This document shows positions 7,677 to 61,849 of a stretch of 64,000 nucleotides of DNA, one piece after another. Numbering within the stretch: the stretch's first letter is position 1; every line of letters begins with the position of its first letter. The notes below the pieces were generated by a model. That model searched no databases, had not been told where the DNA came from, and saw only the letters and a list, made by a program, of their open reading frames with translations. Source of the stretch: Chondrosia reniformis (lineage: Eukaryota > Porifera > Demospongiae > Chondrillida > Chondrillidae); contig OX359201.1 in NCBI GenBank assembly GCA_947172415.1, positions 2,170,001 through 2,234,000 of the forward strand, read 5' to 3'. The translations under genes and the position numbers were made by a program.

Positions 7677-10600
7677 TCATGTACACTTTTCATATACAAC
7701 TTCATTTGCACTGTCAGTTTTATCCTTTGTCATTGTAGAAGCATAAGCTGGGTTATGTTGTAGATCTACACCAGCACTGTAGGGGAAACAGAGGAAGTAG
7801 ATATGACAATTAATAATTGCAATATTATTATACATACTTTCATGTATGTATGTATGTATACCTATAGTAGTATTCTCTAAGTAGGGATGGCTTAAAAACG
7901 CATTACTACAGTACCTTATTCAATGTATTATTGTTTTGGATGCATATCTTAATAGCGAATAGGCAGCCTTGGGTTTGAACACACTTGACATGAAGCAAGT
8001 TAGCTCTGAGGGGACCAAAACAGCCAGGTGCTATTAGCACACCATTTTTAATTATGAGTTTTGGTCTCTTTGACTGCAATATTATTTTGAGTTATCACCA
8101 AGAGATCTAGAACTTTCTAAATAAAATTTGACAAGTGTATGGTTCACTTAATTTCCGTATATGCAATTCTGTATGATCAGTCTTTTACATGCATCAGTGT
8201 CTTGTTTCATTATTTTTCCAGATCTGCTAGTCACGGTTGCAGGCATCATCACCACTAATCCTATCTTCAAAGTTTTCATTTTACTAGTATGTATATATAT
8301 ACACCATAATTGAATTCTCAATTCTTAAATTTTTTATATCATTTCTGCATGTACATAACTTACTATGTATATTCATTCTTATTTTTATTTTCTTTATGAT
8401 TAAATCTCTCCTTCATACTTCTCATGATGAGGACATGTATCACAACAGCAATAATGGAGGTTAGTACTGCACCTCCAAAGAAACCTCCAACAACTCCACC
8501 AACAACTCCACCAACAACTCCACTTGTGCAGTCACCAGTTATTGATGCAGCAGGTCCTATTTGTTATTAATTATTAAAAATACATTTTAAACCTTTATCC
8601 ACAAATCTAGCAGTTACATATATAGTGTAACTTATGAACAAAATAAATAATGCATAGTCAACTTGCTCACTTTTATTATCATTTAAGACAAGTTCTACAG
8701 ACTGAGACTTTCCAACAGCATTCACTGCTACAAGTGTGATGTAATATGTAGCATCTTCCACAAGTCCTGTTAAGTTGTAGTGTGTGTTGTTAGTTGTAAT
8801 GTTAGTCACATTGCAAGTGCAAGTCATGTCCATTGTATAACTCAATTCATACCAAGTAACTCCATCACATGTAGTTGGAGGTGACTCATCCCATTCAATG
8901 TAGAGAGATGTTGTTGCTGCTTGTTCTGTCATTTCTCTCAATCCTATTGGATCATCTGGTGCTACACAGAATAAAGTATATGGATTAATACAATTTAAGA
9001 TACATTGTAACAAATGCAGATCATTTACATTACATAGAGTGGAAGGCGTAAACATTCACCTCTCTAGTACAGTCATTGCACTGTATATATAATAGTCAGT
9101 ATCACAAAACCTACAATATTCATTTGGACCTTAACTGATTCCATAGTTAATAAATTAAACACACTTTCATTTATGCAATTAACAAATGGCAATATATTAT
9201 ATACAATGCCACTTGACATTATTCACTGATGTACTTGAACTACGTATGTACATACATATACGACACTCCACTCCCGATAATTTCTAAGTAAGATTTACAG
9301 TGTATACACTAAATATTTACTTAAGTATGGTTATGATATATTAGTGAACATGTCAAACTCACAGCACAAATAAGATCAGTGAATCAGGCCAGTTAAAATA
9401 TATGAATGTGATTACTGATATGATTATGTACCTCTCTCTGTTACCAAACAAATTTCAAAGACATTTGATGGCTCAGACAATATACCAGTATCAGTGTTAG
9501 CTGAGTTGACTGCCCTCACTCTCATGTAGTATGTAGGGAACTCTGGTCCTGTCCAGTTGTAGTGTGTTAAGCTATTTTGAGTAAGTATAGTTCCACTGAT
9601 TGTGGTAAAGGTACTGTTTGTAGTGTACTCAATCACATAAGAATTAATCACTCCATTTGGGTTAATAGGAGGTAGCCAGTTCAACTCAACTCCATTTTCA
9701 ATATCTCTTGTAATCCTCAGCAGACGTGGAGGACTAGGAACTGAACAGAGAAACAGATTCAGTTATGTAGTTATAGTTTTACATTAAACTCACTGTCATC
9801 TATTGTTTTAACTGTCTTCTCTATGGGTTGACTGACTCCACTACCATTTGTAGCCCACACTCTAATCATGTATCTAGTTCCAGCTGTCAGCTTGTTCAGA
9901 GTAACACTTGTATTGTCAGATCCACCCAACCTCATGTAGATTGGTGTGACTGGTACTGAGAAGTCCAGTCTTTCATAACTGATGTAATATCCAGAGCTTC
10001 CACTAACACTAGTCCAGTTAAGTGTGATGGAATGTTGAGTGAGTTGTGTCACTGACAGATCTTCAGTGGAGGTGAGAGAGGTAGTGTCTACAGCAAGAAT
10101 ATATATCAGCTTAAAGTCCTATATATATGTACATATAATTTTATAAAGGATTACTCTGTTAGCTATATAGCCATCTGTACATGTGCAGTTTTGTAAAAAT
10201 GAACCTATACAATAATAGTACATGAAAAACTGCCTTGGATAGAAACATTCATACCAATATGTAGTAAGTTATATGTAATAGGAAATTTGGAGTGTGGCTG
10301 AGTATTATTATAGCCTGGAAGTGAGGAATATAGTATATAATAATTTCGTTATTAGGTGATGGGCTATAATCAATTAATCAATCATTTATTAAATGGCTAG
10401 AAAGCATTATGGTCTTGATAATACTAAAACGTATATATACCCTATCAGCATTTGAGCAGGAATTCCAGAAACTTTCTTCCGGGTCCCTAATTATTACCGG
10501 CGACAAAGAAAACTAATTACAATGCATAAGGTTTACTTCACTTCCTGTATTGACTTATTCTCGCCATATATCCTATAATCAGTGATTCACAATGTACGTA

Positions 10601-13116
10601 TATGGTAGATAATCCACCATCATTAGCTCGTTACCCTGGCAATGGGAGAAATATAAATATTTATACCCTGTTGCCATGGCAACTGACTGCTTAATGGTGG
10701 TGTATATTCTGGATTTATGTGTTATTATCTGATTGGTCACATAATAAAAGTCGAACAGGAGATGTGAATCAATTAGTCACCTTTTACAGCATTACATCTC
10801 TTAAAATCAATATCATCATTATATGGACAACAGAGAAATGCGTTACAGCCCATGGACTGAGACATCCACCAGAATATAATACTCAGTCAGCTTCGCCTTA
10901 GCCTTCTATTATATTGTGGCTACCATCCTCACCTCTGGTCTATAACTTATACATACAGTCGACTCCACTTATAACAAACTCGCTCATAAGGAATTTTGGG
11001 TTATAACGAACGATTGTCAAAAACCTTTCCTGTCCATTCAATTCCTTCTGTTTATAATAAACAAACTTCTGTTATAACAAACGTATAATTATGTATCTGT
11101 GAAGCCAAAAACGGCTTAAGTTATCAATCTTAAACCGAAGTTAATGAACCAAGTGGACAAAGGGAGGAAGGAGAAGGGTATTTGTGACGAATTTTCAGTT
11201 GAAAAGTCCACCCTGAGTACCATTAATATACTATTTTACGTAATTTTAATTTTGTAATCATTCTACAGCTGTTTACTGTATTCATACTGCACTGATGAGT
11301 AGTTTATTTGTATAGTTATATACAAATAAAGTACATGTGATCATAAAGAACTTCTTTTATAAAGAATTATGCTGGGATTTTGGTGTTCGGTATATCAGGA
11401 GTCGACTGTATATAATTTGCTAGCTATAAATGTGGACTATTTTGTAAAAATGCACAATCTGCAATAGGACATAAAAAACATTCTAACTTGGATTGACAAA
11501 CATTCCAAACCATGCTGTCCTCTGATTTCCTTTACAGTAGAATTCTTTATTTGAAGGATTCAGAGAAATTATTCTTGTTAACTGATTAAACTTATATTGA
11601 GTGTAATAATATGATGTATAAGAGTGACTTGAGAAGGGTACTTTAGTTCCACTTCTATAATACCATGACACTTGACCTGCACCACTACTGTAACAGTGGA
11701 CACGATATTTAGCATTATTTTCTCTTAATATTGGAGTTCCATCAGTGACAAAACTGCTTCTTGGAAAGTAGATTCCAGGATATTGTGAACTTGTTTTATA
11801 ATATATGGACACACCAGCTGTAAATAAACATATGGAGGTACGTAATGTGTGTGTATATTAAAATTACAGTTTATTTACAGAGTACACCATTATTATGTAT
11901 ATATATACTCCGTTGCCGGGGCAACCGCCTGTGTTTAAATTTCGTAACCGCAATATAACAGGATTTAAAAAGCTATATACTGCATCGGCTTTTTAAATCC
12001 TGTTATATCCCTGCCCAAATATGGTAAACTAAGACGTTTCTACTTGGAGGGTGGACAATTCTCCTTACATTTAGGACAGTTGGAGTAGTCAGGGCAAGAG
12101 CATTCTATGAAGTCGTCAGCATTTAACCAAAACCAACCAGATGCTAGATGAGCCATCCTGAAAGTCCCGCCAAAATAACGATAAGAAGCGACGGAGTATA
12201 TATCACTCATACCACGGCTCTTCGGTGTATATGGATTTTATATGTACTCGCCCTCGTGACTCATATGTATAAAATCCATATACACCTCAGCACCGTGGTA
12301 TAACTAATAAATAACTACGTAAATATGCACAGTAACAATATACTTAGAAATTGGTCTAAGGAATATAGAATATATAAGAATACAATTCTGGCTTATTTTA
12401 TAAGTATATTTCAGACCGTTCAACATCTATACAATTAACCTTCTCCATTAAGCCCAGCTTCTCAACTAACATTATTCTAAACAATACAGTCTTAAGATTG
12501 TTTGGAAGTGCTTGAACATAAAACTCTATTAAATGGTAATCATACAAAGAAGTATAAACAAACTTGTAACACTGATCCTGTGAGTATCACTCCCCAGTAT
12601 CACTCCATCACTTCTATAAGATACATTACACTGGTAGTCTCCATTATCCCATTCCTTTACTATATCCACTACTACTGTGTTGTTGTACTGTCTTCTTGAA
12701 CCAACCTGTGATGGCTCTGATGGATTGTCACAAGTACGTTCATTAGCACATGTCCAGCTGTAAGTCAGTTCACTTCCATAAGGTACTCCAACCACTCTAC
12801 ACACCAAAACCACTGTTGTTCCTTGCTCCACTTCAGTAGTATTTGGAGAGGCGTCGATCTTAACTGTGAAACACAAATGCCATCGGATATTCTACAGTAG
12901 CTGTAATTTGTGATATATTTTCTAACGAGTACTCTGTAGTAGCTCTTCTTACCTTGGATGTTGCCTGGTTGGGAAGAGCAAACTTGACCAGTTAAAAGAC
13001 CTGAAGGAAATTGACCAAATGAACTAAGTTTTAGTTATAATATTTAGACTTAAAACGCCTAAGATTTTACCTTCGAAGAAGAGTGCGACAATTATTCCTG
13101 CGCAGTAAGTTACCAT
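7677..13116 (-). CDS. Receptor U1: Ig1-Ig2-FN3x3-TM surface protein, whole (about 636 aa)
   Basis: Nine exons on the - strand: 13071-13116 (signal peptide MVTYCAGIIVALFFEG), 12953-13000 (linker), 12564-12863 (Ig1: LVCRV, YSWTC, GDYQC), 11488-11817 (Ig2-like: VHCYSS, VSWYY, EFYC), 9794-10087 (FN3-1, WTSV and TRYMIRVWATNGSG), 9432-9740 (FN3-2, NWLPP and YYMRVRAVNS), 8671-8961 (FN3-3, IEWDESPPTTCDGVTWYE), 8364-8556 (Gly/Val-rich lead and TM helix ending VLIMRS), 7677-7776 (tail). Ectodomain exons all join in phase 1, so each can be skipped without breaking the frame. Many N-glycosylation sequons (NTT, NNT, NWT, NLT). The tail has EYTYAGVDLQHNPAY and VVYEKC. No kinase or other catalytic domain. 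The linker-Ig2 intron carries transposons. Function is inferred: adhesion or recognition at the cell surface. Confidence 0.85.
10956..11408. mobile_element. pogo/Tigger-like MITE in U1 intron 4, TA target duplication
   Basis: A 453-bp element with terminal inverted repeats CAGTCGACTCC and GGAGTCGACTG, flanked by TA on both sides. Inner ends are of the TTATAACAAAC type common in pogo/Tigger non-autonomous elements. The matching place in U4 (near 35346) reads ACATATATAATTTGC without the insert and with one TA, so the insertion is precise and younger than the U1/U4 duplication. No transposase is encoded. Confidence 0.82.
11905..12200. mobile_element. Small inverted-repeat element (ACTCCGT ends) in U1 intron 3
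   Basis: Ends read TATACTCCGTTGCC and GCGACGGAGTATA, giving a short terminal inverted repeat. It contains a perfect 21-bp inverted repeat (11953-11973 and 11988-12008, starting ATATAACAGGATTT) with a 14-base loop. The same intron of U2 (near 19040) runs straight through without it. Non-coding, so it is presumably non-autonomous. Confidence 0.65.
12209..12301. mobile_element. Foldback element with ATACCACGG ends
   Basis: Almost the entire 93 bp is one hairpin: the left part ATACCACGG plus GGTGTATATGGATTTTATA pairs with the right part of the same sequence ending CCGTGGTAT, around a loop of about 25 bases. It sits right beside the ACTCCGT element and is also absent from U2. Confidence 0.7.
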
Positions 13117-13149
13117 TCTTATCTAGTTAACGACCAACAACAATAATAA

Positions 13150-15832: not shown

Positions 15833-18800
15833 TTATGTACACTTTTCATACACAACTTCATTTGCACTGTCAGTTTTATCCTTTGTCATTGTAGAAGCAT
15901 AAGCTGGGTTATGTTGTTGATCTACACCAGCACTGTAGGGGAAACAGAGAAAGTAGATATGACAATTATATTATACATACTTTCATGTATGTATGTATAT
16001 TTACTTATATATAGTATAGTATTCTCTAAGTAGGGATGGCTTAAAAACACTACTACTGTACCTTATTCAATGTATTATTGTTTTGGATGCATATCTTAAT
16101 AGCGAATAGGCAGCCTTGGGTTTGAACACACTTGACATGAAGCAAGTTAGCTCTGAGGGGACTAAGTCAGGTGCTATTAGCACACCATTTTTAATTAAGA
16201 GTTTTGGTCACTTATTATTTTGAGTTATCACTTTTCTATTATCTATCTCTTTTCTAAATAAAATTTGACAAGTGTATGGATCACTTAATTTCTGTATATC
16301 CAATTCTGTATGATCAGTCTTTTTACATGCATCATTGTCTTGTTTCCGATGATTATTTTTCCAGATTTGCTAGTCAAGGTTGCAGGCATCATCATCACTA
16401 TCCTATCTTCATTTATATAATGCTTTTATTTTACTAGTACGTATATATACACACCATAATTGAATTCTCACTTCTTAAATTTTTATATCATTTCTGCATG
16501 TACATAACTTACTATGTATATTCATTCTTATTTTTATTTTCTTTATGATTAAATCTCTTCTTTGTACTTCTCATGATGAGGACAAATATCACAACAGCAA
16601 CAATGGAGGTTAGTACTACACCTCCAAAGAAACCTCCAACAACTCCACTAGTACAGTCACCGTTGATTGATGCAGCAGACACTATTTGTTAATGTAATAT
16701 ATTAAGAATATAAATCATAATAAATATATATACATTTTAAACTTTCATCCTATATATACACAAATCTAGTAACAATAGTGTAACTAATGAACAAAATAAA
16801 ATAATGTAATTAATGTCAACTTGCTCACTTTCATTATCATTTAAGGCAAGTTCTATCATTACAGAATGAGATTTTCCAACAGCATTCTTTGCTACAAGTG
16901 TGATGTAATATGTAGCATCTTCCACAATTTTCTTTAACTTGTAGTGTGTGTTGTTAGTTGTAATGTTAGTCACATTGCAAGTGAAAGTCTTGTCCATTGT
17001 ATAACTGTATACTGAGTAACTCAATCACATGTAGTTGGAGGTGACTCATCCCATTCAATGTAGACAGATGTTGTTGTTGCTAGTTTTGTTATTTCTCTCA
17101 ATCCTATTGGCTCACTTGGTGCTACACAGAATAGTTCATGGCAATTTATGCAGATCATTGACATTACACAATAAATGATAAACATTCATCTCTGTGAATC
17201 AGTGAGGAGAATGGAAAATATATCAATGTGGTTACTGATATGATTATATACCTCTCTCTGTTCCCAAACAAATTTCTAGTACATTTGATGGTTCTGACAT
17301 TGTACCAGTATCAGTGTTAGCTGAGTTGACTGCCCTCACTCTCATGTAGTATGTAGGGAACTCTGGTCCTGTCCAGTTGTAGTGTGTGTAGCTATTTTGG
17401 GTAAGTACAGTTCCACTGATTGTGGTAAAGATAATGTTTGTAGTGTACTCAATCTCATAAGAAGTGATCACTCCATTTGGATTAACAGGAGGTAGCCAGT
17501 TCAACTCAACTCCATTTTCAATATTTCTTGTAATTCTCAGCAGACGTGGAGGACTAGGAACTGAACAGGGAAAGGCATGCAATAAAGAAACAGATTATGT
17601 TATGTAGTTATAGTTTTACATTAAACTCACTGTCTTCTTCTGTTTTAACAGTCTTCTCTATGGGTTGACTGACTCCACTACCATCTGTGGCCCACACTCT
17701 AATCATGTATCTAATTCCAGCTGTCAGCTTATTCAGAGTAACACTTGTACTGTCAGATCCACCCAACCTCGTGTAGGTTGGTGTGACTGGTACTGAGAAG
17801 TCCAGTCTTTCATAACTGATGTAATATCCAGAGCTTCCACTAACACTAGTCCAACTGAGTGTAATGGAATGTTGAGTGAGTTGTGTCACTGATAGGTCAT
17901 CAGTGGACAATAGAGAGGTAACGTCTACAGCAAGATTGCAGGATTATATATATTATATATCAACATGAAGTAAGATCTGTATATAATAGTTATAGCCCAT
18001 GGCCAGAGGTAAGGACTTCATACAGCCTCACTGAGTATATATATAATAATTTGGTCCAACTATAACTGTTATAGCTATATCCCATTGTGATAGCATTCGA
18101 ACATCCGAGCAAAATGGACAATATATTTAAAGAAATTCCACAAATTTGCTTCATATATCATATCAGCAATTCATATTGTATATGGTAATTATTTGCCGCT
18201 GCTAGGTGGTTGCCATGTGTATTGAATGACTATAAAATTGCTATTTGTGACACTTTCCCTTCATACAATGGATATATTGTATTGGAGAGCAAACATATCT
18301 ACTAAATAAATAAATGACAAAATCTAATCAGGTTCAGCTGATTCAATCAATAGCAATAACACACAGATATGTATAACCCCAAGTTTAAACGTAACTTAGC
18401 AACGCTAGCAAAATCTGTCGTCACACCTTTCCCACTCTTTGATCGACAAATACATCACTTAAAACACCCTCATGGGGGTATTATAACTAATACATAATCC
18501 ACCAATATCATCTCGTTACCCTGGCAAATAGGCAGGAGAATATATAGATGTATAATTAATATGCTGGCTACATGTGTTTACAAACTGTGTATTGTGTGGT
18601 TTTGTAAAAGAGCACATTCTGCAATATTACATGAAAAAACATTCTACATAATGCTAACTTGGATTGACAAACATTGCAAACCATGCTGTCCTCTGATTTC
18701 CTTGACAGTAGAATTCTTCATTTGAAGGATTCATAGATATTATTCTTGTTAACTGATTAACCCTACTTTGAGTGCTGTAATATGAAGTATAAAAGTGACC

Positions 18801-19775
18801 TGAGAAGGGCACTTTAGTTCCATTTCTATAATGCCATGACACTTGACTGCACCACTACTGTAACAGAAGACACGATATCTAGTATTCCCTTCCACTAATA
18901 TTGGAATTCCATCAGTGAAAAAACTGTTTCTTGGAAAGTAGATTCCAGGATACTGTGAACTTGGTTTGTAATATATGGACACACTAGCTGTAAGGTGTGT
19001 GTATATTAAAATTACAGTATATTTACAGGTACACCATTATTATGTATATTAATAAATACGTATATATGCACAGTAACAGTATGAGACTAGTACAGTGCAT
19101 CATCTACGTATATAATTAACCTTCTCCATTAAGCATGATTCTAAACAATACCCATACAGCCTTAAGAAATGATTGAACATTACAGTCCAACTTGAATATT
19201 AAACTCTATTAAATGGCAATCATACAAAGAAGTAAACAAACCTGTAACACTTATCCTGTGAGTATCACTCCCCAGTATCACTCCATCACTTCTATTAGAT
19301 ACATTACACTGGTAGTCTCCATTATCCCTCTCATAAACTATATCCACTATTACTGTGTTGTTGTACTGCCTCCTCGAACCAGCCTGTGATGGTTCTGATG
19401 GATTGTCACAAGTACTTCCACTAGCACATGTCCAGCTGTAAGTCACTTCACTTCCATAAGGTACTCCAACCACTCTACACACCAAAACCACTGTTGTTCC
19501 TTGCTCCACTTCAGTAGTATTTGGAGAGGCGTCGATCTTAACAAATGCCATCGGATATTCTACAGTAGCTGTAATTTGTGATATACTTTCTAACGAGTAC
19601 TCTGTAGTAGCTCTTCTTACCTTGGATGTTGCCAGGTCGGGAAGAGCAAACTTGACCAGTTAAAAGACCTGAAGGAAATTGATCAACTGATTTAGTTAAA
19701 ATATTTAGACTTAAACGCCTAAGATTTACCTTCGAAGAAGAGTGCGATAATTATTCCAGCGTAGTAAGTTACCAT
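15833..19775 (-). pseudogene. Receptor U2: Ig1-Ig2-FN3x3-TM copy with frameshifts
   Basis: All nine exons are recognisable: 19730-19775, 19621-19668, 19242-19541, 18659-18987, 17631-17924, 17252-17560, 16829-17121, 16513-16681, 15833-15932. The Ig2 exon is 329 nt, one short of the family's 330, moving the frame near 18848. The FN3-3 exon is 293 nt and has lost 4 bases near the CDGVTWYE segment. The usual CAG acceptor before Ig1 is gone through an 11-base deletion. The FN3-2/FN3-3 intron is only 130 bp against about 470 in U1. Signal peptide, FN3-1, FN3-2 and TM exons remain open, so decay is recent. Sequencing error is possible for single events but unlikely for all three. Confidence 0.78.
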
Positions 19776-22493: not shown

Positions 22494-22526
22494 ATTCAGA
22501 CTAAACCCGGTAAACGGTCTGACCAA

Positions 22527-23165
22527 AAATTGAAAGATGTAACAAATCTAAATCCTCTTTAAATAACTAATCCCAACCTATATATGCTTAATAAAGTCTA
22601 TGTATGTATTGCGAGAAAACCATTATGAAAATATACATGTATAGAAAATTTTCATAAAACTTAGTAATTGGCAATCGAATAGTAATAAAGTATTACCTTA
22701 TTGTATTGTCTTCATTGGTTTTGGTTAAGTGTGTGGTTACTGTAGTTCATTAACAGAATTAAAGCATTTCATTGGCACTAAATTGAAGAATTATATATTG
22801 TTCCCTTATATGTGTCTGTTAAGTGTGAATGTACATTCAAAAGTGACAAAGTACATACAATTATTTTTCTCGTTATATTCCATTGAAAATAAAGAGTATA
22901 TTGCTGTGATCCTTAAATAATTCATGATACCATCGAATCAACAAGTTGAGCAGGCATCATTATATAGGTTATTAAATATATATAATACATATGTATAACC
23001 ATGCAAGATTGGCTAATATATATATATTAAAATATAATGTAGAAAGTAGCCAAAATAGCATCTTTTTAACGTAATAGTTTCAACAACAAGAATTATTAGA
23101 GCTTAAAACAGCTGTTTTTAACAGTAATTACTATAGTACATAATACACACTGTTATGCACATTTT
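22527..23165. other. Upstream region of GPCR copy A to end of U3
   Basis: AT-rich. About 22700-22920 is closely similar to 54180-54425 upstream of GPCR copy B, so the duplicated block includes the GPCR 5' flank. No gene recognised. Confidence 0.5.
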
Positions 23166-26100
23166 TCATATATATACAACTTCATTTGCACTGTCAGTTA
23201 TATCCTTTGTTATTGTAGAAGCATAAGCTGGGTTATGTTGAAGATCTACACCAGCACTGTAGGGGAAAGAGAGGAAGTAGATACAAATGGATTGCAATAT
23301 TGCATTATATGTATACTTTCACAAATAATCATCTACGTATATGTCTTATCAGAGAGTACAGTAGAGAAGAGTAGAGAAAACCAGCTGCCTATATATTTTA
23401 TTCGTCTCAGATGCCTATCATCTAAAAAGTTGCATAAAGTGGCTAGGAAATATAGGTTTGAACACACTTTACATAATGCAAGTTAGTTCTGAGGGGACTA
23501 AAGTTGGATAGGTTATATAGCACACTATTTTTAATTAAGGATTCTTGGTTATCTGCTTTTATCATTATTACTTAATATTACAGAATATTAGCTTTGAAAA
23601 GGAGAGGAATGAAGGTTAGCTGCAGCAAGACGGAGTACATGTGTGTGAATGAGAGGGACCCGAGTGGAACAGTGAAGTTACAGGGAGCAGAGATAAAGAA
23701 GGTGGAGCATTTTAAGTACCTAGGGTCAACAGTCCAGAGCAATGGAGAGTGTGGAAAAGAGGTGAAGAAGCGGGTGCAAGTAGGTTGGACTGGGTGGAGA
23801 AAATTGGCAGGTGTGATGTGTGACAGAAGAGTGCCAGCAAAATTGAAAGGGAAGGTGTACAAGACAGTGGTGAGACCAGCAATGTTGTATGGTTGAAAGA
23901 CAGTAGCACTGAGGAAAGGACAGGAGGCAGAGATGGAGATAGCTCAAGATGTTGAGGTTTTCTTTGGGAGTGACCAGAATGGATAGGATCAGGAACGAGT
24001 ACATCAGAGGGACAGTGCATGTTGGATGTTTTGGAGATAAAGTGAGAGAGGCCAGGATATATGATGGTTTGGTCATGTACTGCAGAGGGATAGTGAATAT
24101 ATTGGTAGAAAAATGCTGGGGATGGAACTGCCAGGAAGGAGGCCTAGAGGACAAAAGAGGAGATTTATGGATGCTGTGAAAGAAGATATGAAGGTGTGAG
24201 AGAAGAGGATGCCGAGGATGGAAGCAGATGATTCGCTGTGTCGACCCCTAAAGGCAAAGCCAAAAGGAGAAGAAGACTTAATATTACAGATATGCTAATG
24301 AGGAATGCCTAAACTAATATTAAATGTTTTTATTTTACTTGTAAATTCATAATTATATGTACGTATGTACATAACTTACTACGTATATTCATTCTTATTT
24401 TTATTTTCTTCATGATTAAATCCCTTCTTTGTACTTCTCATGATAAGGACAAATATAACAACAGCAATGAGAGAAGTTAGTGCTGCACCTCCAAAGAAAC
24501 TTCCAACAACTCCACTTGTACAGTCACCATTGATTGATGGAGCAGATACTATTTGTTAATGCAATATATATTAAGAATACATAAACATTCATCCACAAAT
24601 CTAGCAGTTATAGTGTAACTAATGAACAAAATAAATCATGCATAGTCAACTTGCTCACTTTCATTATCATTTAAGGCAAGTTCTACAGACTGAGACTTTC
24701 CAATAGCATTCACTGCTACAAGTGTGATGTAATATGTAGCATCTTCCACAAGTTCTCTTAAGTTGAGGTGTGTGTTGTTAGTTTTAATGTTAGTCACACT
24801 GCAAGTGCAAGTCTTGTCCACTGTATAACTCAATTCATACCAAGTAACTCCATCACATGTAGTTGGAGGTGACTCATCCCATTCAATGTAGACAGATGTT
24901 GTTGTTGTTGCTTGTTCTGTTATTAATCCTGTTGGCCCATCTGGTGCTACACAGAATAAAGTATATGGAATAATACAATTAAAAATACGTACATTGTAAC
25001 AAATGCAGATCATTGACATTATATAGAGTGGAAAGCGTAAACATTCACCTCTTAAGTACAGTCATTGTACTGTATATATAATAGTCAGTATCACAAAACC
25101 TACAATATTCATTTATATATTATAGACCTTAACTGATTCCATAGTTAATAAATTATACACACTTTAATTTCATTTATGCAATTAACAAATGGCAATATAT
25201 TAAATACAATGCCCCTTGACATTATTCACTGATTTATTTGAACTACGTACATATAAGTATATATATGACACTCCACTCCTGATAATTCTAAGTAAATTGA
25301 CAGTGTATACACTAAATATTTACTTAAGTATGGTTATGATATATTAGTGAATATGTCAAACTCACAGCACAAATAAAGTCAGTGAATCAGTGAGGCCAGT
25401 TAAAATATACGAATGTGGTTATCGATTACTGATATGATTATATACCTCTCTCTGCTCCCAAACACATTTCTAGCACATTTGAAGGTTCAGACATTGTACC
25501 AGTATCAGTGTTAGCTGAGTTGACTGCCCTCACTCTCATGTAGTATGTAGGGAACTCTGGTCCTGTCCAGTTGTAGTGTGTTAAGCTATTTTGGGTAAGT
25601 GCAATTCCATTGATTATTGTAAAGGTACTGTTTGTAGTGTACTCAATCTCATAAGAAGTGATCACTCCATTTGGATTAACAGGAGGTAGCCAGTTCATCT
25701 CAACTGCATTTTCAATATCTCTTGTAATTCTCAGAAGACGTGGAGGACTAGGAACTGAACAGAAAAATAAATAACATAAATAATAGCTAGAATAGCTACA
25801 TAGTGCAACATAAATATATATATATATATTATATTATATTATTTATTTATTTATTTATATTAGATTAGATTACCTTAGTATATTGTAACTTGTACTGTAT
25901 ATAATATATTCACTCAGTAATGTAGTTATAGTTTTAAACTAAACTCACTGTCATCTTCTGTTTTAACTGTCTTCTCTATGGGTTGACTGACTCCACTACC
26001 ATCTGTAGCCCACACTCTAATCATGTATCCAGTTCCAGCTGTCAGCTTGTTCAGAGTAACACTTGTATTGTCAGATCCACCCAACCTCATGTAGGTTGGT

Positions 26101-48406: not shown

Positions 48407-48481
48407 TCATGTACACTTTTCATGCACAACTTCATTTGCACTGTCAGTTTTATCCTTTATATTGTAGAAGCATAAGCTGGG

Positions 48482-51400
48482 TTATGTTGTAGATCTATAC
48501 ACCAGCACTGTAGAGGAAACAGGAAATAGATTATTCTTATTTTCTTTATGATTAAATCTCTCCTTCATACTTCTCATGATGAGGACAACTATCACAACAG
48601 CAATGATAGAGGTTAGTACTGCACCTCCAAAGAAACCTCCAACAACTCCACCAACAACTCCAATTGTACAGTCACCATTTATTGATGCAGCAGACACTAT
48701 TTGTTAATGCAATATTAAAAATACATTTTAAACCTTCATCCTATGCATACACAAATCTAGCAGCTATGTAGTGTAACTAATGATCAAAATATATAAGGCA
48801 TAGTCAACTTGCTCACTTTTATTACCATTTAAGACAAGTTCTACAGACAGAGACTTTCCAACAGCATTCATTGCTACAAGTGTGATGTAATATGTAGCAT
48901 CTTCTACAAGTCCTGTTAGGTTGTAGTGTGTGTTGTTAGTTGTGATGTTAGTCACACTGCAAGTGCAATTCTTGTCCATTGTATAACTCAATTCATACCA
49001 AGTAACTCCATCACATGTAGTTGGAGGTGACTCATCCCATTCAATGTAGACAGATGTTGTTGTTGCTTGTTCTGTCATTTCTCTCAATCTTATGGGCTCA
49101 CCTGGTGCTACACAGAATATAGCCTATGGAATAACTTATTCAGATACATTGTGATTCATAGAGTGGAAGCATATATATATATATATAAACAGTCACCTCT
49201 ATAGTACAGTCATTATTACAAACCCTACAATAGTATATGTTTAGACCTTAATTGATTCGATGCAAAGTACTTAATAAATTAAATATACTTTTATTCTTTC
49301 AATTAACAAATGATAATATATATACTTTATACAACATTATACCTACATCATACACTATGTTTATACAAGATTACACCTTTACTTTGAAAGATTTACAGCT
49401 TAGATACTAATTTTCTTAGGAATCGTAATGATACGTACATTAGTGAACAAGTAGGAGTCACAGCACAAATATATAAAAAAATAAAGTCCATGAATCAGTG
49501 GGTAAAAATATATAAAAACAGTTACTGATATGATTATATACCTCTCTCTGTTCCTAAACAAAGTTCTAGCACATTTGATGGCTCAGACGACATTGTACCA
49601 GTATCAGTATTAGCTGAGTTGACTGCCCTCACTCTCATGTAGTTTGTAGGGAACTCTGGTCCTGTCCAGTTGTAGTGTGTTAAGCTATTTTGGGTCGGTA
49701 CATTTCCAATGATTGTGGTAAAGGTACTGTTTGTAGTGTACTCAATCTCATAAGAAGTGATCACTCCATTTGGATAAACAGGAGGTAGCCAGTTCAACTC
49801 AATTCCATTTTCAATATCTCTTGTAACTGTCAGCAGAAGTGGAGGACCAGGAACTGAATAGAGAAACAGATTCAGTTATATAATTATTGTTAATACATTA
49901 AACTCACTGTCATCTTTTGTTTTAACTGTCTTCTCTATGGGTTGACTGACTCCACTATCATCTGTAGCCCACACTCTAATCATGTATCTACTTCCAGCTG
50001 TCAGCTTGTTCAGAGTAACACTTGTATTGTCAGATCCACCCAACCTCATGTAGGTTGGTGTGACTGGTACTGAGAAGTCCAGTCTTTCATAACTGATGTA
50101 ATATCCAGAGCTTCCAATAACACTAGTCCAGCTGAGTGTAAAGGAATGTTGAGTGAGTTGTGTCACTGACAGGTCTTCAGTGGAAGTAAGTGAGCTGCTG
50201 TCTACAGCAAGGATTATATATATTATGCTGTAAGTTGTATGTAATATAGCACAGAGGTGAGGACTACAGCTGAGTCTGAGGCAATGGACTATAAGTGATA
50301 TTTCAGAGAGTACGGTAGTACTCTCTTTGTAGGGATGATACTGGGGTTGTTTCGTTTTCCCAATACATTGTTATAGGAGCAAAATTCCGAAATTGGCTGA
50401 AAATCGTGAAAATACTCTAAATTTTTGCTGTATTTTATTTGTAGAAGCGAGAGCAATAACTTTATTATTGAGCATGACGGTTTTCGTGGCCCAAGAGTCA
50501 AGGCTTCAAAAAATCGCCATTTTAAAGACGTCATATCAGTCAAAAATTGCGCAATAAAAATCTAATTCCTATATAGCTCATGCTCCATAAAAAGTACAGA
50601 AATTAGAGAAATCTACAAGCAAAGGTGTTGTATGATTTACGCATAGCTAATACTTCACTGTGTAAAATCCCTTTCTTGTTTCTGAGCTTTTTATGCCATC
50701 CCTACATCCTCACAATTTTTGTAGAAAATTTTTATTGTTCTCTAGTATGTGATAGCATTCAAGCAGCTCAGGAATAAAATGGCTAATTATAAAAATATAA
50801 AGGAATATCAGAAATTCAGGATTTAAAGAAGTTATGACACACGTCTTAGATTTACTTCACTTCCTGCATTAACTTGCTAATGCCCCCTATTTATCAGCAA
50901 TTCACGCTTTAGATGGTAGATAATTTACCAATATCATCTCTTTACCCTGGTAATGGGGGATATATAATTAATATGCTAGCTATTTACAAACTGTGTATTG
51001 TGTGGTTTTGTAAAAATGCACATTCTCCAATAGTACATGAAAACACATTCTACATAATGCTAACTTGGATTGACAAACATTCCAAACCATGCTGTCCTCT
51101 GATTTCCTTTACAGTGGAATTCTTCATTTGACGGATTCAGAGAAATTATTCTTGATAACTGATTCGACCTACCTTGATTGAAAGAATATGATGTATAAGA
51201 GTGACCTGAGGAGGGTGGTTTACTTCCATTTCTATAAAACCATGACACTTGACCTGCACCACTACTGTGACAGAAGACACGATATCTAGTATTCCTGTCT
51301 ACTAATATTGGAGTTCCATCAGTGACAAAACTGTTTCTTGGAAAGTAGATTCCAGGATACTGTAATCTTGTTTTGATATATATGGATACACCAGCTGTAA

Positions 51401-52110
51401 AAATATACAATACAATAATATACAAACATAATAAGGTATATACATATAGTGTTATAGTATAGAAAATTTTGTTTTTTAGTGCTTGAATATAAAATATTAA
51501 ACTCTATTAAATGGCAATCATACAAAGAAGTAAACAAACCTGTAACACTGATCCTGTGAGTATCACTCCCCAGTATCACTCCATCCCTTCTATTAGATAC
51601 ACTACACTGGTAGTCTCCATTTTCCCATTCCTTTACTATATCCACTACTACTGTGTTGTTGTACTGCCTCCTTGAACCACGCTGTGATGGTTCTGATGGA
51701 TTGTCACAAGTTCTTCCACTAGCACATGTCCAACTGAAAGTCAGTTTACTTCCATAAGGTACTCCAACCACTCTACACACCAAAACCACTGTTGTTCCTT
51801 GCTCCACTTCAGTAGTGTTTGGATAGGCATTGATCTTAACTGTAACATTAACTGAGAAGCACATACGTATATTCCATCAAATATTTTACAACACGTACAG
51901 AAGGTGTAATTTGTGATATATTTTCTAACGCGTACTCTGTAGTATCTCTTCTTACCTTGGAGGTTGCCTGGTTGGGAAGAACAAACTTGACCAGTTAAAA
52001 GACCTGAAGGAATTGACTAACAGATTTAGTTATAATATTTAAACGTTTAACATCTAAGATTTACCTTCAAAGAAGAGTGTGACAATTATTCCTGTGTAGT
52101 AAGTTACCAT
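48482..52110 (-). CDS. Receptor U6: Ig1-Ig2-FN3x3-TM with a lost last intron and changed tail (about 611 aa)
   Basis: Exons: 52065-52110, 51956-52003, 51540-51839 (Ig1; alternative acceptor adds 12 nt), 51065-51394 (Ig2), 49908-50201, 49542-49853 and 48817-49107 (FN3-1 to -3), then 48482-48696 (TM). In every sister a 450-1,120-bp intron follows the TM exon. Here almost all of it is deleted, including the donor: KENKNN runs on into LFPVSSTVLVYRSTT and a stop, reading through the old branch/acceptor region and the first bases of the tail exon in the wrong frame. Remnants of that exon (48407-48507) remain but are untranslated. The protein keeps its full ectodomain and membrane anchor but loses YTYAGV, NPAY and VVYEKC. 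Such a form could act as a non-signalling decoy; that is inference. Confidence 0.8.
50308..50730. mobile_element. Element with GTAC-GGTA-GTAC terminal hairpin, in U6 intron 4
   Basis: Starts AGAGAGTACGGTAGTACTCT (9-bp stem, GGTA loop) then TTGTAGGGATGA; ends TATGCCATCCCTACATCC, the inverted form of TGTAGGGATGGCATA. So it has a terminal inverted repeat plus a hairpin outside one end. Interior AT-rich with GAAGCGAGAGCAATAAC. Non-coding, about 420 bp, absent from the same intron of U5. Confidence 0.65.
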
Positions 52111-52954: not shown

Positions 52955-53977
52955 TTATATATTTTGTTTTACCCAAATCCTATATAGTTTTACAGAAGTG
53001 GGTTGGGATGTAATAATAATATAATATATAATAATATAATAAAGTTGATTATACACTGCTGGACAAAGTAGTGCTTCCCTTCTTCCCCTCTCTCTTGTAT
53101 TTACAAGTACATATATAGCAGATCTTTTGACGAAGTGGCTGAAAATATAGTAAAATGAGAAGAGAGGTTGGAAAGAGTGAAAAAATACAAGCCAACCCTC
53201 AGCTGTTAACACTATGTCCTCTAAAAGTGCTTCTTCAGCACCATCTCCCTCAGGCAAAGCTTCAGTAATGACTGCTGGAACAATTTGACCAATAAAGCTT
53301 ATTGTATTGCCAATTACAAGGAACAGAGTAAACCTTACAAGAGCCTTTTGTGACTTTAAGTCACCTGAAATGCTTCTGTGTCTTATGTAGAGGCACGACA
53401 ATATGGGAGTAACAATTGTCACTGCATAACTTAAAATGCCATAAAGGAAGATGTACATTATTAGAAAAGGAAGTCCACCTTCATCATCCAGAGTAGGTGA
53501 ACAGGTAACATTCTTGGTAATTTTAATAGTAATAACTTGAGGACTCCAAACTACTGCATTTAATGATATATTAATGACCCATATCATGCAAACAGTCAGC
53601 ACTACATACCTCAGTACTACTCCATTGTGGCCATACCTTACAAACAGGAACACTACCACAGTGAAAACTGCCATAAATGAGAATCTGCAAGTTCCTCCAC
53701 TTAAATACATCCAAGTAAAGATGCGACAAAAGTGTTCTGAAGGTTTAACATACAGGTTAGTGGCTGATATAATGAGGTCAGCGGTATTTAATATTACTCC
53801 ACTCAACCCAACAGTAATATTAGCAGCCAGTAGGTTGAACATTAGAAGGCGCACAGGTTTTGGAAAAGTAGACTCTCTTAGAATCATAAGCTGGACAAAT
53901 AGTATGCCAGGAATAAGGAGAACTATCAATTCAACCAAAGAACCAACTCTAAACCTTTGGACTAGAAAGATTTTCAT
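52955..53977 (-). pseudogene. Rhodopsin-like 7TM receptor, copy B (long open frame, altered ends)
   Basis: A 340-codon open frame covering TM1 to TM6 unbroken: LLIPGILFVQLMIL, LLMFNLLAANITVGLSGVI, the TM3 segment ending FLFVRYG, VLTVCMIWVINISLNAVV, ECL2 with CSPTLDDEGG, and VRFTLFLVIGNTISFI. Compared with copy A it starts in a shifted frame (MKIFLVQ instead of MNANLSSPSQK), lacks three residues in TM1 (NLF), and loses one T before TM7, so TM7 reads HSFQPLFSFYYIFSHFV and the end runs into receptor U6 flank. It may still insert in membranes, but the normal TM7 and tail are lost. Copies A and B are otherwise nearly the same, so the duplication is recent. Confidence 0.68.
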
Positions 53978-55380: not shown

Positions 55381-58300
55381 GTTACGACAACAATAAAAAT
55401 TAACACTCTTTAAAACAGTTGTTTTTAACAGTAATTACATGCACACTGTCATGTACACTTTTCATACACAACTTCATTTGCACTGTCAGTTTTATCCTTT
55501 GTCGTTGTAGAAGCATAAGCTGGGTTATGTTGAAGATCTACACCAGCACTGTAGGGGAAAGAAAGGAAGTAGATACATATACATATATATATGGATTGCA
55601 ATATTGCATTGTATATATACTTTCACAAATAATCATCAGATTCTATATGTCTTAGAGTATAGTCTTCCCTAAGAGTAAGGATGGCAGTATCTTATTCATC
55701 TTGGATGTCTATCATCTAAAAAGTTGCATAAGGAGGCTAGGAAATATAGGTTTGAACTCATTTTATATACATAATGCAAGTTAGTTCTGAGGGGACTAAA
55801 ATTGGATAGTGTTAGCACAGTATTATAATTAATTCTAGGCTTCTCTGCTTTTATCATTATTACTTAATACGTACGTATTACAGATATGCTAATTAGGAAT
55901 GCCTTTAACAACACTAATTCTATATTCATTGCTTAAATGTTATTATTTTACTTGTAAATCCATAATCTTAAATAATTGGATTCTTAAATTTATATGCATG
56001 TACATAACTTACTACGTATATTCATTCTTATTCTCATTTTCTTTATGATTTAATCTCTTCTTTGTACTTTTCATGATGAGGACATGTATCACAACAGCAA
56101 CAATGGAGGTTAGTACTGCACCTCCAAAGAAACCTCCAACAACTCCACCAACAACTATACCAACACCTCCACTGGTACAGTCACCATTGATTGATACAGC
56201 CGACACTATATTTGTTAACGTAATATTAAAAATACATTTTAAACCTTCATCCTATGCATACACAAATCTAGCAGCTATGTAGTGTAACTAATGATCAAAA
56301 TATATATGCATAGTCAACGTGCTCACTTTCATTATCATTTAGGGCAAATTCTACAGACTGAGACTTTCCAACAGCATTCACTGCTACAAGTGTGATGTAA
56401 TATGTAGCATCTTCCACAAATACTGTTAAGTTAAGGTGTGTGTTGTTAGTTGTAATGTTAGTCACATTTGAAGTGTAAGTCTTGTCCATTGTATAACTCA
56501 ATTCATACCAAGTAACTCCATCACATGTAGTTGGAGGTGATCGACTCATCCCATTCAATGTAGACAGATGTTGTTGTTGCTTGTTTTGTTATTTCTCTCA
56601 ATCCTTTTGGATCATCCGGTGCTACACAGAATAATGTACGCATATGGAATATTTTATATCATTATTATTCAGATACATTGGGATTGAGAATGGAAATCAT
56701 ATAATATAAACATTCACCTCTAATAGTACAGATACTGCACAAACCTTAATTAAATTACCTTAATTGAATCCAAAATTATTAAATTAAAACACATTTTTAT
56801 TTGTACAATTAAACATTTTTTACAATGCTTCTGACCAATTAATCCATTCACTGATTGACTATATACTATAGTTTATAGATAGAGAAATTATTTGAATAAT
56901 CAGCAACACTTCTTCAAACAAAGATTAAGACATTTCAACCCATGGGTCTTCATCATACTGTTTATATAATTACTTTCAAAGAGTATATAAACACTAAATA
57001 ATTACTTAAGTTTATATGGTTATAATACATTAGTGAACATGTCAAACACACAACACAAATAAAGTCAGTAACTCAGTGAGTTAACATATGAATGCGGTTA
57101 CTGCATTTTATACCTCTCTCTGTTCCCAAACAAATTTCTAGCACATTTGATGGCTCAGACATTGTACCAGTATCAGTGTTAGCTGAGTTGACTCCCCTCA
57201 CTCTCATGTAATATGTAGGGAACTCTGGTCCTGTCCAGTTGTAGTAGGTTAAGCTATTTTGTGTAAGTACAGTTTCACTGATTGTGGTAAAGGTACTGTT
57301 TGTAGTGTACTCAATCTCATAAGAAGTGATCACTCCATTTGGATAAACAGGAGGTAGCCAGTTCAACTCAACTCCATTTTCAATATCTCTTGTAATTCTC
57401 AGCAGACATGGAGGACTAGAAACTGAATAGAGAAACAGATTCAGTTATATAATTATTGTTAATACATTAAACTCACTGTCTTCTTCTGTTTTAACTGTCT
57501 TCTCTATGGGTTGACTGACTCCACTACCATCTGTAGCCCACACTCTAATCATGTATCTAGTTCCAGCTGTCAGCTTGTTCAGAGTAACACTTGTACTGTC
57601 AGATACACCCAACCTCATGCATGTAGGTTGGTGTGACTGGTACTGAGAAGTCCAGTCTTTCATAACTAATATAATATCCAGAGCTTCCACTATAACACTA
57701 GTCCAGCTGAGTGTAATGGAATGTTGAGTGAGTTGTGTCACTGACAGGTCTTCAGTTGAGGTGATAGAGGTAGTGTCTACAGCAAAAATATGATAGTTAT
57801 AGAGGCGAGTACTACAGTTAAGTATATAATAATTTGGGCAGAAGTCCAACTATAACTAATATTATATCTACATCCCATTGCGAAAGCATTTGAGCATCCG
57901 TGGATCAAAATGGCTAAAAATTTAATGGAATTCCAGAAATTTGCTTCAGGGTCTAAAGAAATTATGGTAACTAAGAAAAGGAATGAGAAGATTTTCTTTA
58001 CTACCTTGCTAAAGCCATATACCCAGCTATTAATCAGCGATTTATAATGTATATGGCAGATAATCCCCCAATAACATCTTGTTGTAATGGGGAATATATA
58101 CCTAAAATTAATATATGTTAGCTATTTACAAACTGTATATATATTGTGTGGTTTTGTAAAATGTACAACCTACAATATTACATGAAAACACATTCTACAT
58201 AATGCTAACTTGGATTAACAAACATTCCAAACCATGCTGTCCTCTGATTTCCTTGACAGTAGAATTCTTCATTTGAGGGATTCAGAGAAATTATTCTTGT

Positions 58301-58734
58301 TAATTGATTAAACCTACCTCGAGGGCTATAATATGATGCATAAGAGTAACCTGAGAAGGGTGGTTTAGTTCCATTTCTATAATACCATAACACTTGACCT
58401 GCACCACTACTGTAACAGAAGACACGATATCTGGTATTCCTTTCCACTAATATTGGAGTTCCGTCAGTGACAAAAGTGTTTCTTGGAAAGTAGATTCCAG
58501 GCCAAGATACTGTGAACTTGTTTTGATATACATGGACAAACCAGCTGTAAATATATACAATACAACATATATAATATACAAACATAATGAAGGTACAGAT
58601 AGTGTTATAGTATTTATATTGAAAAACATGTGTATTGCTATTCCAGCTGTAAATATTTACTATATATATTTACGAAGGATAGCATAATTATGTATGAACA
58701 TATTATTATATATACACGTTTATATATGTTGATC

Positions 58735-61140
58735 TATGTGCACGTGTCTGTGGATTTGCCTACTGATTTTTCGGATTGTTGCTTGCTATGAATCTCTCTT
58801 TCATCCAACAAGGAGATGCTGTTCGCCACACGTAACCTGACTGTAGGAAGTTATTCGTGTTTCACTCTCTGCTTGTGGAAGCGAAGTTCACACCTTCGTC
58901 CCGATCTGGAACACGAAGGTCACGGGTGGTCATTATCCCCTTCTGCTATTGGCCGCTGTCAGGGGATGTCAAGCTAAATCCAGGCCCAACCTGCTTTCCA
59001 TGCACCGTCTGCAACAAGTCAGTCAGGATAAATCAGTCTGGGGTATGATGTGATGCTTTTGACAAGTGGACACACGCTGGCTGTGCCCGCATTGCAAGGC
59101 AAGGATGAGTACAAAAGGCTGAGTATCGACAGTGAGTTAGAATGGTTGTGTCCCACCTGCACCAATCACCTGACAGTACTATATACCTTCTTGTGTCCTA
59201 CTGCAAATCACCTCCCACCATCCATGCCTTCCCCCATTGAGTCCTCATCAAAACTAGCCACATGTGGTCCATTCTGCCACATTAATGCCCAACTATTGAT
59301 GAACAAGCTAGATGAGTCAATTCTGCCTCTAGACCTGTAGGTTTCAGTATAAGTGAGACTTGGCTTAATGACTCCATTCAAAATGGTGAGGTTGACATTC
59401 CAACTTATGTCCAATACCGGTGGGACAGAGGCAGTCACGGTGGTGGTGTATTGGTGTACATTCCTGTTAACCTGAGAAACCACAGGAGGCCTGACTTGGA
59501 AGCTGAGGGTGTGGAAGTCATCTGGGTGGAGCAAGCTATATGTACATAGAAAAAGGTTACACTCCCGACAATTTCCCTCTGAGTGGAAGAATGCAAACAT
59601 TACTCCTATACTCAAATCTGGAGACAAGAAAGACATAAATAACTTTCGACCCATTTCTGTTCTACCTCGTTATAGCCAAATTGCTTGAATTCTTCGACAC
59701 CAAGCAACTCTGTGAGTATTTGGAGTCGAACAAACTCCTAAATGTTGCCCAATCTGGTTTTCAATCAAGCCACTACACCCAAGATGTCTTATAATTACTG
59801 AAATGCACTGATGACTGGAAAACAGCTCTCAATGATGGAATGATTGTTGGTACAGTAATGATTGATCTGCCTAAGGCTTTTGATTCTATAGACCATTTCC
59901 TTCTTTTGAAGAAACTCGTAGCTCTTGAAGTCCGAGATAAGGAACATATTTGGTTTGAAAACTATCTGAAAGGAAGTAGGCAAAGAGTTGTTGTCAGCAG
60001 CACTTTCTCTGAATGGAGAAGTGTAGTTAAAGGTGTGCCTCAGGGGTCCAATTTGGGACCACTCCTTTTCTTGGTTTTTGTGAATGACTTGCCCAGTGTA
60101 GACAAACACAGCAAGGTCAACTTCTATGCAGATGACACCTCATTTAGATGAATGTGGCCAGTGTAGTCAAACAAACCTCTATGCAGATGACACCTCATTC
60201 AGATGAATGTGGCCAGTGTAGTCAAACAAACCTCTATGCAGATGACACCTCATTCAGATGAATGTGGCCAGTGTAGTCAAACAAACCTCTATGCAGATGA
60301 CACCTCATTCAGATGAATGTGGCCAGTGTAGTCAAACAAACCTCTATGCAGATGACACTTAATGAATGTGGGCAAAACTCAGCTGATGGTCATGTGTGGC
60401 CACAAAAAGAAGCATCTGGAGGACCAAGATGAAGTGCGTATTTGGGAAACCTTGCTATGGAAGCATGATTCAGTGTTACCGTAGATAAACACCTAAGTTG
60501 GAAGGCGCACATTGCTAATGTACAAAGGATAGGCTTGGGAAAAATTGCTGCTATCAGGAGGGCAGGCGTCTATCAGGCATATATCCTATCATATAGCCAA
60601 GTCAGGAAAATGTTGTACTTCTCTTTTGTCAGTGGTTTGGCTCAATTGTGGTGTCGTCCTGACTAGCACTGAACACATTCAGAACTGTGCTCTCAGAATG
60701 ATTATAAAAAACCTCCAATCAATCAATCCTTGGTGTCACTCCTAGGAGGCCTTTTTGGAATCATTCTGAGAGCATAACTAAAGATTCTCTCGTCGCAAAT
60801 TATCCAGCAAACAGAGGGGCTACCAATCTCTATCAAAGAAATCCCCATACAAATACTTATCGATCAACTTTTGAATAGATATTTTGGAGATGAGCAATTT
60901 AACAGACTTCCAGATCACATCAAATCCTTAAAGACTGAAGCTGCCTTCCAAAAGGCATTATTTTCCTCATCCACCTAACTGTTATAACTTGAAAATAACT
61001 TTCTAATAACCCAATTTGTTCCACAATGTGTTCATGTTTTATATTGTATTAGTAAATCAGGACCTGTATGAAAAGCTGCAGCTATGCAGTATTTCCTGTT
61101 GCAAAATTAATGTAAAGTAATGGTGATGATGATGATGACA
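58735..61140 (+). mobile_element. APE-type LINE (CR1/L2-like) with 2A-like peptide, in U7 intron 3
   Basis: Left to right: a WPLSGDVKLNPGP segment (about 58954-58989) resembling 2A ribosome-skipping peptides, then a Cys-rich PHD-like start CFPCTVCNKS and WTHAGCARIAR; endonuclease pieces ISETWLNDSI and HGGGVLVYIPVNLR (59345-59535); RT from FPSEWKNANITPI through KAFDSIDH, GVPQGSNLGPLLFLVFVNDL and YADDTSFR (to about 60150); a 3' part with NPWCHS-like ending; tail of GATGATGATGAT repeats near 61125. Several stops and shifts, a gap between endonuclease and RT, and a tandem repeat after the RT box show that it is dead. G+C is higher than the host intron. Clade assigned from remembered motifs. Confidence 0.8.
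60138..60362 (+). repeat. Tandem repeat, about 55-bp unit, four copies, at the LINE's YADD box
   Basis: The unit GAATGTGGCCAGTGTAGTCA... ATGCAGATGACACCTCATTC is repeated four times nearly without change, the last copy cut short. Each unit repeats the codons for the RT active-site YADDTSF. It arose after insertion or in the parent copy by local slippage or unequal exchange. Confidence 0.9.
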
Positions 61141-61849
61141 TTCTGTCCGGGGCTTACTTGATACTATGTTATCTAATTATCCTTCCAATTCCCTCTATTA
61201 AACTGATGTAATCCATACAGCCTTAAGAATGTTTTGTAGAGCTTGAATTAAAGGCCAACTTTATTAAATGGCAATCATACAAAAACGTAAGTAAACCTGT
61301 AACACTGATGCTGTGGGTATCACTCCCCAGTATCACTCCATCATTTCTATTAGATACACTACACTGATAGTCTCCATTATCCCATTCCTTTACTATATCC
61401 ACTACTACTGTGTTGTCGTACTGCCTCCTTGAACCAGGCTGTGATGGTTCTGATGGATTGTCACAAGTTCTTCCACTAGCACATGTCCAGCTGTAAGTCA
61501 TTTCACTTCCATAAGGTACTCCAACCACTCTACACACCAAAACCACTGTTATTCCTTGCTCCACTTCAGTAGTGTTTGGATAGGCGTCGATCTTAACTGT
61601 AACATTAAAAGTTAAACTGTGAAGCACTTGTATACGGATATTCTAGATCTATGACACGTAATTTGTGATATATCTAACGAGTACTCTTTTTACCTTGGAT
61701 GTTGCCTGGTCGGGAAGAGCAAACTTGACCAGTTAAAAGACCTGAAGGAAATTGATCAATTGATTTAGTTAAAATATTTAGACTTAAAACGCCTAAGATT
61801 TACCTTCGAAGAAGAGTGTGACAATTATTCCTGTGTAGTAAGTTACCAT

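Follow-up and report, generated by a model that had tools for sequence, protein, structure and literature searches.

A 727-kb complex of phosphatase-bearing and short-tailed Ig-FN3 receptor genes in a sponge: a candidate paired recognition system

A tandem array of receptor genes on chromosome 13

The stretch analyzed here (hereafter the window) spans 64,000 nucleotides of chromosome 13 (C13:2,170,001-2,234,000; GenBank assembly GCA_947172415.1, contig OX359201.1) of the kidney sponge Chondrosia reniformis. It carries seven irregularly spaced copies (U1 through U7) of one nine-exon gene for a predicted single-pass receptor, all on the minus strand and with start-to-start distances of 7.1-8.8 kb. 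The U7 start codon (window position 61849) and the U1 stop codon (7677) bound the array and coincide exactly with the limits given in an earlier first-pass annotation. The spliced exons of U1 encode 636 amino acids without a stop, and its introns are in phase 1 except for the last, which is in phase 2. Every U1 exon has a match in all six other copies (only in part for E8 of some copies), with the exception of E2 and E3 of U4. The copies, in window coordinates, are as follows.

7677..13116, minus strand: U1, whole; ATG at 13116, stop at 7677
15833..19775, minus strand: U2, broken; E4 and E7 frameshifted, acceptor of E3 is TG
23153..28624, minus strand: U3, open; four extra nucleotides in E9 alter the final residues, NPAY retained
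31954..36597, minus strand: U4, open without E2 and E3 (no first Ig domain); phases of E1 and E4 still compatible
38998..43547, minus strand: U5, whole copy
48407..52110, minus strand: U6, ectodomain open; donor of E8 deleted (15 nucleotides between E8 and E9), frame of E9 lost
55449..61849, minus strand: U7, broken; E4 and E7 frameshifted, E5 altered, intron 3 of 2752 nucleotides with a reverse-transcriptase piece

The exons of U1, numbered in the order of transcription, are these.

13116-13071, minus strand: E1
13000-12953, minus strand: E2
12863-12564, minus strand: E3, first Ig domain (Ig1)
11817-11488, minus strand: E4, second Ig-like domain (Ig2)
10087-9794, minus strand: E5, first FN3 domain (FN1, or FN3-1)
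9740-9432, minus strand: E6, second FN3 domain (FN2, or FN3-2)
8961-8671, minus strand: E7, third FN3 domain (FN3-3)
8556-8364, minus strand: E8, transmembrane segment (TM)
7776-7677, minus strand: E9, tail

The domain order is signal peptide, Ig1, Ig2, three FN3 domains, TM and a short tail with tyrosines. Pfam detects one Ig domain in U1 (Ig_3, 38.3 bits against a cut-off of 30) and three fn3 domains, and the single TM of each receptor was recognized by eye. Ig2 has no Ig match in Pfam and is not confirmed by a fold model either; it was judged Ig-like by eye only, from its C..W..YC pattern, and we treat it as an orphan Ig-like domain. Among the 13 Pfam families with matches in U1 at E values up to 1, there is neither a TIR domain nor a Calx-beta or related domain.

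Most of the first-pass description holds at this level. The exon matches across U1 through U7 bear out its seven copies, single orientation and nine exons, and its tally of three whole, two altered and two broken copies is correct if U3 is counted as whole (U1, U3 and U5; U4 and U6; U2 and U7). Its assignment to a sponge and its receptor-like architecture are also supported. Within its formula of two Ig domains, three FN3 domains and a TM, the first Ig and the three FN3 domains stand, but the second Ig is left without confirmation from Pfam or the fold model.

The array is part of a 727-kb complex

A genome search (one genome; 117,379,552 bases in 15 contigs, of which C13 accounts for 6,903,244) revealed that the window holds only a portion of the family. 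The published assembly is described as 117.37 Mb in 14 chromosomes plus the mitochondrial genome, with a chromosome 13 of 6.9 Mb (PMC12181767). A tblastn search with U1 places the family at C13 1.626-2.354 Mb and also on C9. When Ig1 was used as the query, all 90 candidates were scored and 85 matches obtained, 43 of them on C13:1.627-2.354 Mb with at least 86% identity. One further match lies on C4 at 74%, and the remaining 41 are far weaker, at 59% or less. The complex thus comprises 43 Ig1 exons spread across 727 kb of chromosome 13, with outliers on C4 and C9. Nineteen of these exons are on the plus strand, at 1.735-1.951 Mb, and 24 are on the minus strand (21 at 2.18-2.35 Mb, three at 1.63-1.65 Mb). 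With its seven copies, the first-pass annotation underestimated the scale about sixfold. Its proposal of rapid copy turnover is supported.

The same annotation had allowed that the family might be a known single-copy gene multiplied by a haplotype or assembly artefact. Some segments are indeed 98-99% identical. However, the copies in the window differ by 5-11% in exons and by more in introns, and their spacings are irregular. Because 43 Ig1 exons extend over 727 kb in an assembly reported to be chromosome-level, built from HiFi reads at ~70x, treated with purge_dups and showing 0.6% duplicated BUSCOs (PMC12181767), an artefact is extremely improbable.

Several features of the surroundings were also recorded. 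A reduced copy on the right flank (C13:2242325-2243141) consists of E1, E2 and Ig1 with a tail exon immediately after. An inverted repeat of 2 kb and 97.7% identity (C13:2173573-2175609 and 2272122-2270068), with its arms ~98 kb apart, could be a mobile element or mark a possible inversion site. Ig1-like and FN3-1-like exons, separated by less than ~1 kb and lacking an Ig2 match, occur at C8:7.56-7.85, C10:1.12-1.18, C1:2.84, C9:7.10 and C13:0.63 Mb; these are predicted distant Ig-FN3 relatives in other clusters.

A phosphatase exon follows in most plus-strand genes and a short tail in most minus-strand genes

Exons for a protein tyrosine phosphatase (PTP) domain distinguish the two halves of the complex. 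Between each plus-strand Ig1 exon and the next Ig1, we found a PTP exon in 14 of 19 cases (one 11.5 kb away), a short-class TM and tail in two, and neither, among the matches listed, in three. The 14 genes with a PTP exon therefore look like receptor phosphatases. Within the half that includes the window, a short-class TM lies downstream of 17 of the 21 minus-strand Ig1 exons and a short tail downstream of 20. A first PTP search, in which the best 150 of 531 candidates were scored, revealed such exons all along the plus-strand half. In a search with one PTP exon, for which all 76 candidates were scored, 16 of the 61 matches are on the C13 plus strand at 1.739-1.956 Mb, one is in a divergent gene described below and one is at the C4 copy, and none of the 61 falls at C13:2.17-2.36 Mb, the interval that contains 21 Ig1 exons. 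Likewise, four PTP peptides yielded no match below an E value of 1 in 144 kb of sequence surrounding the window, the best E being 2.4, leaving the window genes without a detected PTP. One of these peptides matches a plus-strand gene at 1735-1740 kb, named C1735, with an E value of 6e-16. Read directly, C1735 contains FN3-3, a distinct TM, and PTP exons with GWPDYG and SAGVGRTG.

The divergent gene, at C13:1.653-1.661 Mb inside the complex, is a phosphatase with the same order of parts: Ig1, an Ig2-like exon, three FN3 domains, TM and PTP exons. Its exons match their array counterparts in lenient two-sequence comparisons (E 8e-13 for Ig1, 1e-17 for FN1, 8e-8 for FN2, 0.002 for Ig2). FN3-3 gives no such alignment and prefers its counterpart by shuffled score only (z 5.7), and the TM and tail do not match those of the array. 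Two of its FN3 exons were scanned with Pfam and both score above the fn3 cut-off, and the Ig of Ig1 stays below cut-off. At L035 and C13:1654892-1655032, the active-site exons of C1735 and of this divergent phosphatase are nearly identical in protein and their ectodomains widely different; conversion may reach the catalytic exons of these phosphatases. Elsewhere, very many PTP exons cluster at C6:0.61-1.26, 3.07-3.14 and 6.6-7.0 Mb with I-set Ig matches near some, and these are possibly other large receptor-phosphatase arrays.

The short class has a characteristic membrane and cytoplasmic portion. The U1 tail exon (7677..7776, minus strand) encodes NPAY and VVYEKC. Eight tails rebuilt from DNA (six window copies, A1626 and L031) are 48-52 residues long with three or four tyrosines, and all eight carry both NPxY, a PTB-binding and uptake motif, and YxxPhi. 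Among the 18 tail exons of at least 95 nucleotides, 14 retain NPAY, one has NPAS and three have lost the frame. The glycine-rich TM of this class contains GVVG units in varying number and lacks D, E, K and R, and in some copies it includes a histidine. The predicted short-tailed receptor of the window is one half of a two-class system. The first-pass annotation missed the link to phosphatases because the PTP exons lie outside the window.

The two classes share a partly reassorting set of ectodomains

Three phosphatase-class ectodomains were available for comparison. The PTP exons of two of these, L030 and L032, were assigned by position, 5.0-5.7 kb downstream of Ig1, and the sequences of both were read through the TM and juxtamembrane part. 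The tailed copy U5 and the phosphatase C1735 are 94, 79, 92, 92 and 78% identical in Ig1, Ig2, FN1, FN2 and FN3-3, respectively, and the two tailed copies U5 and U1 are 89, 80, 95, 87 and 91% identical. The short L031 and the phosphatase L032, which lie 9 kb apart, share 94% (Ig1), 83% (Ig2), 95% (FN1), 85% (FN2) and 86% (FN3-3). FN3-3 excepted, a phosphatase ectodomain is therefore about as close to a window ectodomain as two window ectodomains are to each other. The TM and tail sort differently: U5 and L031 match each other with z 51, and either one matches the phosphatase-class strings with z 1.9-6.6.

A tree was built from the 13 of 19 units with Ig1, Ig2, FN1 and FN2 open, of which three rows represent the at least 14 phosphatase copies. 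These three are scattered across the tree, and nearest neighbors shift from exon to exon. Grouping the phosphatase ectodomains as one clade costs 95 log-likelihood units and is rejected (p-AU 0.000113, for one tree of recombining sequence). FN1 and FN2 distances are uncorrelated (r 0.09, with 294 of 999 permutations as high); the gap between these exons is 53-70 nucleotides in six of the seven window copies and 194 in U3. Window copies differ by 0.05-0.11 in exons and by 0.11-0.17 in the short introns 1, 2, 5 and 7, and by more in the other introns, partly through poor alignment. Conversion or exchange among copies would be the simplest reading of these patterns. Since the ectodomains of the two classes are intermixed, ectodomain and signaling part appear to have been reassorted. 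These comparisons show two predicted signaling classes on one partly reassorting ectodomain set.

These near-identical ectodomains are also what would be expected if the short forms were decoys or dominant-negative partners, acting by ligand occupancy or by pairing through the glycine-rich TM, or if they were uptake receptors using NPxY and YxxPhi. The lack of D, E, K and R in the TM and the presence of both motifs in all eight tails fit such roles. However, a pure decoy has no need of a tyrosine tail, and NPxY is also a signaling motif. We rate this alternative as decidedly unlikely.

Variation is greatest in Ig2

For measures of variation, exon matches below 60% of full length were dropped, along with frame-broken exons (one of Ig1, two of Ig2, one of FN1, five of FN3-3), the U7 FN1 exon with offsetting frameshifts, tail exons under 95 nucleotides and, for dN/dS (the ratio of nonsynonymous to synonymous rates) only, stop-bearing tail exons. 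Ig2 is the most variable ectodomain exon by mean column entropy (0.56), with FN3-3 close behind (0.53), followed by FN2 (0.31), Ig1 (0.26) and FN1 (0.26). In 13 copies, or 78 non-independent pairs, with FN3-3 outside the test, the proportion of nonsynonymous differences (pN) is higher in Ig2 than in Ig1 for 78 of 78 pairs, than in FN1 for 76 and than in FN2 for 73. Variable columns of Ig2 cluster near residues 6-10, 31-35 and 58-85, with insertions and deletions, and the last 16 residues are nearly invariant.

Weighing the interpretations

We favor the view that the window is part of a ~727-kb complex of paired receptors, derived from receptor phosphatases and probably serving recognition, and assign this a probability of roughly 55%. 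Under such a scheme, a receptor phosphatase that lost its phosphatase exons would have given rise to the short form. We infer this direction, phosphatase first and loss later, because receptor phosphatases are reported from sponges and other animals (PMC5336234) and because the divergent gene and the C4 copy bear PTP exons. Conversion and unequal crossing-over would then spread and vary the ectodomains, most of all in Ig2. Both classes could bind the same or a similar ligand on neighboring cells or microbes. Kinases would phosphorylate the short tail, leading to recruitment of adaptors with PTB (phosphotyrosine-binding) or SH2 (Src homology 2) domains or to uptake, and a phosphatase-bearing sister in the same contact would remove the phosphate. 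The class that dominates at a contact might thereby set acceptance or rejection. Allorecognition is one candidate use of such opposed signaling, and recognition of microbes is another.

Several observations weigh against this view. The proportion of synonymous differences (pS) is also raised in Ig2 (0.163, versus 0.090 in Ig1), and therefore less homogenization or older variation partly explains its variability. Values of dN/dS are 0.53 for Ig1, 0.55 for FN1, 0.54 for FN2, 0.78 (0.55-1.09) for Ig2 and 1.04 (0.73-1.45) for FN3-3; no interval lies wholly above 1, and none of these five exons supports positive selection. The tail exon is not under tight constraint (dN/dS 0.77, 14 exons), and the many broken copies are consistent with drift. 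The phosphatase copies are more distant from the window copies in FN3-3 (66-79% to U5). Exon distances correlate between Ig1 and Ig2 (r 0.44, 2 of 999 permutations) and between Ig2 and FN3-3 (r 0.59, 1 of 999), and therefore exchange is partial and reassortment incomplete. Finally, none of the eight rebuilt tails carries an immunoreceptor tyrosine-based inhibitory motif (ITIM) or activation motif (ITAM).

Alternatively, the cluster could reflect routine birth-and-death in a family of LAR-like adhesion phosphatases, whose short forms would be truncation by-products, some of them expressed, with no recognition role of their own. Ectodomain dN/dS is below or near 1 and that of the tail is 0.77, two of the seven window copies are broken and three altered, and PTPRF and PTPRD, along with titin and fibronectin, are among the sequence relatives of the FN3 part in the Protein Data Bank. 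However, the short class fills the half of the complex that includes the window, has its own TM and keeps NPAY in 14 of 18 tail exons, and variation peaks in Ig2. We consider this explanation rather unlikely.

The paired-receptor view has a version in which the complex recognizes microbes and not conspecifics, and the odds of the two overlap. Chondrosia reniformis is reported to have a typical high-microbial-abundance microbiome (PMC12181767), and Ig and FN3 genes of other sponges have been described as responding to microbial patterns. However, the present data favor neither microbes nor conspecifics as the source of the ligand, and we regard the microbial version as possible but doubtful. 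In a more specific version, the complex would resemble a histocompatibility system: the phosphatase would itself be the inhibitory receptor of the sponge, opposed by a receptor that joins the same ectodomain to an NPxY tail open to phosphorylation. Conversion would keep ectodomain pairs matched as Ig2 diversifies, and the balance at a contact would read self and non-self without ITIM or ITAM; the vertebrate counterpart of such one-molecule inhibition is ITIM plus SHP. This version is speculative, and we think it rather improbable.

Other open reading frames in the window

A reverse-transcriptase open reading frame (RVT_1) at 59795-60151 lies inside intron 3 of U7, and a pair of reading frames at 3408-5177 resembles it by eye, with no Pfam match. 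Two copies of a hydrophobic reading frame (21539-22547 and 52955-53977), 31.5 kb apart and 92-98% alike where matched, look multi-pass by eye. The second is open for 340 amino acids, the first is interrupted, and the stretches scanned have no Pfam match.

Comparison with known systems

Receptor tyrosine phosphatases of the LAR/R2A type share the order Ig, FN3, TM with this family, and the plus-strand sponge genes also have PTP exons (with the WPD and SAGVGRTG motifs read in one). However, the window genes lack a detected phosphatase, the sponge Ig2 is an orphan and more than 40 sponge copies lie in one complex. The sponge aggregation factor differs by its Calx-beta and related domains, and sponge IgTIR receptors by their TIR domain, neither of which was detected in U1.

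Inhibitory paired receptors of vertebrates carry ITIMs that recruit phosphatases, whereas in the sponge the phosphatase lies in the receptor itself. Paired receptors such as the FcR-like and KIR families are described as having extracellular regions that are alike but joined to distinct TM regions, with species-specific expansion and domain shuffling (PMC2413239). The sponge complex likewise combines near-identical ectodomains with TM and cytoplasmic parts of different types. Hydractinia Alr is similarly a cluster of single-pass Ig receptors (43 Ig1 exons over 727 kb here), but Alr genes are reported to encode ITIM or ITAM (PMC12065747) where the sponge has NPxY and YxxPhi tails and a phosphatase class. 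The Botryllus fuhc locus, described as containing ligands and a family of Ig-superfamily receptors within ~800 kb, differs in its canonical ITIM and hemITAM motifs and its phylum (PMC12065747). The uroplakins UPK2/3 arose from a PTPRQ-like gene as a receptor phosphatase minus its PTP, and a PTP-less tunicate form has a short tail; only the TM-adjacent FN3 was kept, and the abstract does not mention a large two-class cluster (PMC5242461).

Searches of open-licence PMC papers on the Ig receptors of sponges, on receptor phosphatases and on allorecognition listed no title or displayed abstract that describes such a complex, although a description may be in print elsewhere. This looks like a paired recognition system in a sponge, seemingly undescribed. 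According to a 2025 review, how allorecognition works in invertebrates is ‘a complete mystery’ (PMC12065747). The complex also ties a receptor-phosphatase family to many receptors that lack the enzyme, for which we found one precedent, the uroplakins (PMC5242461). With more than 40 near-identical receptors, one class bearing a phosphatase and the other a tyrosine tail, the mapped complex provides a concrete sponge candidate with testable loci. It allows one to ask whether sponges, which are among the simplest animals, had paired antagonistic recognition without ITIM or ITAM.
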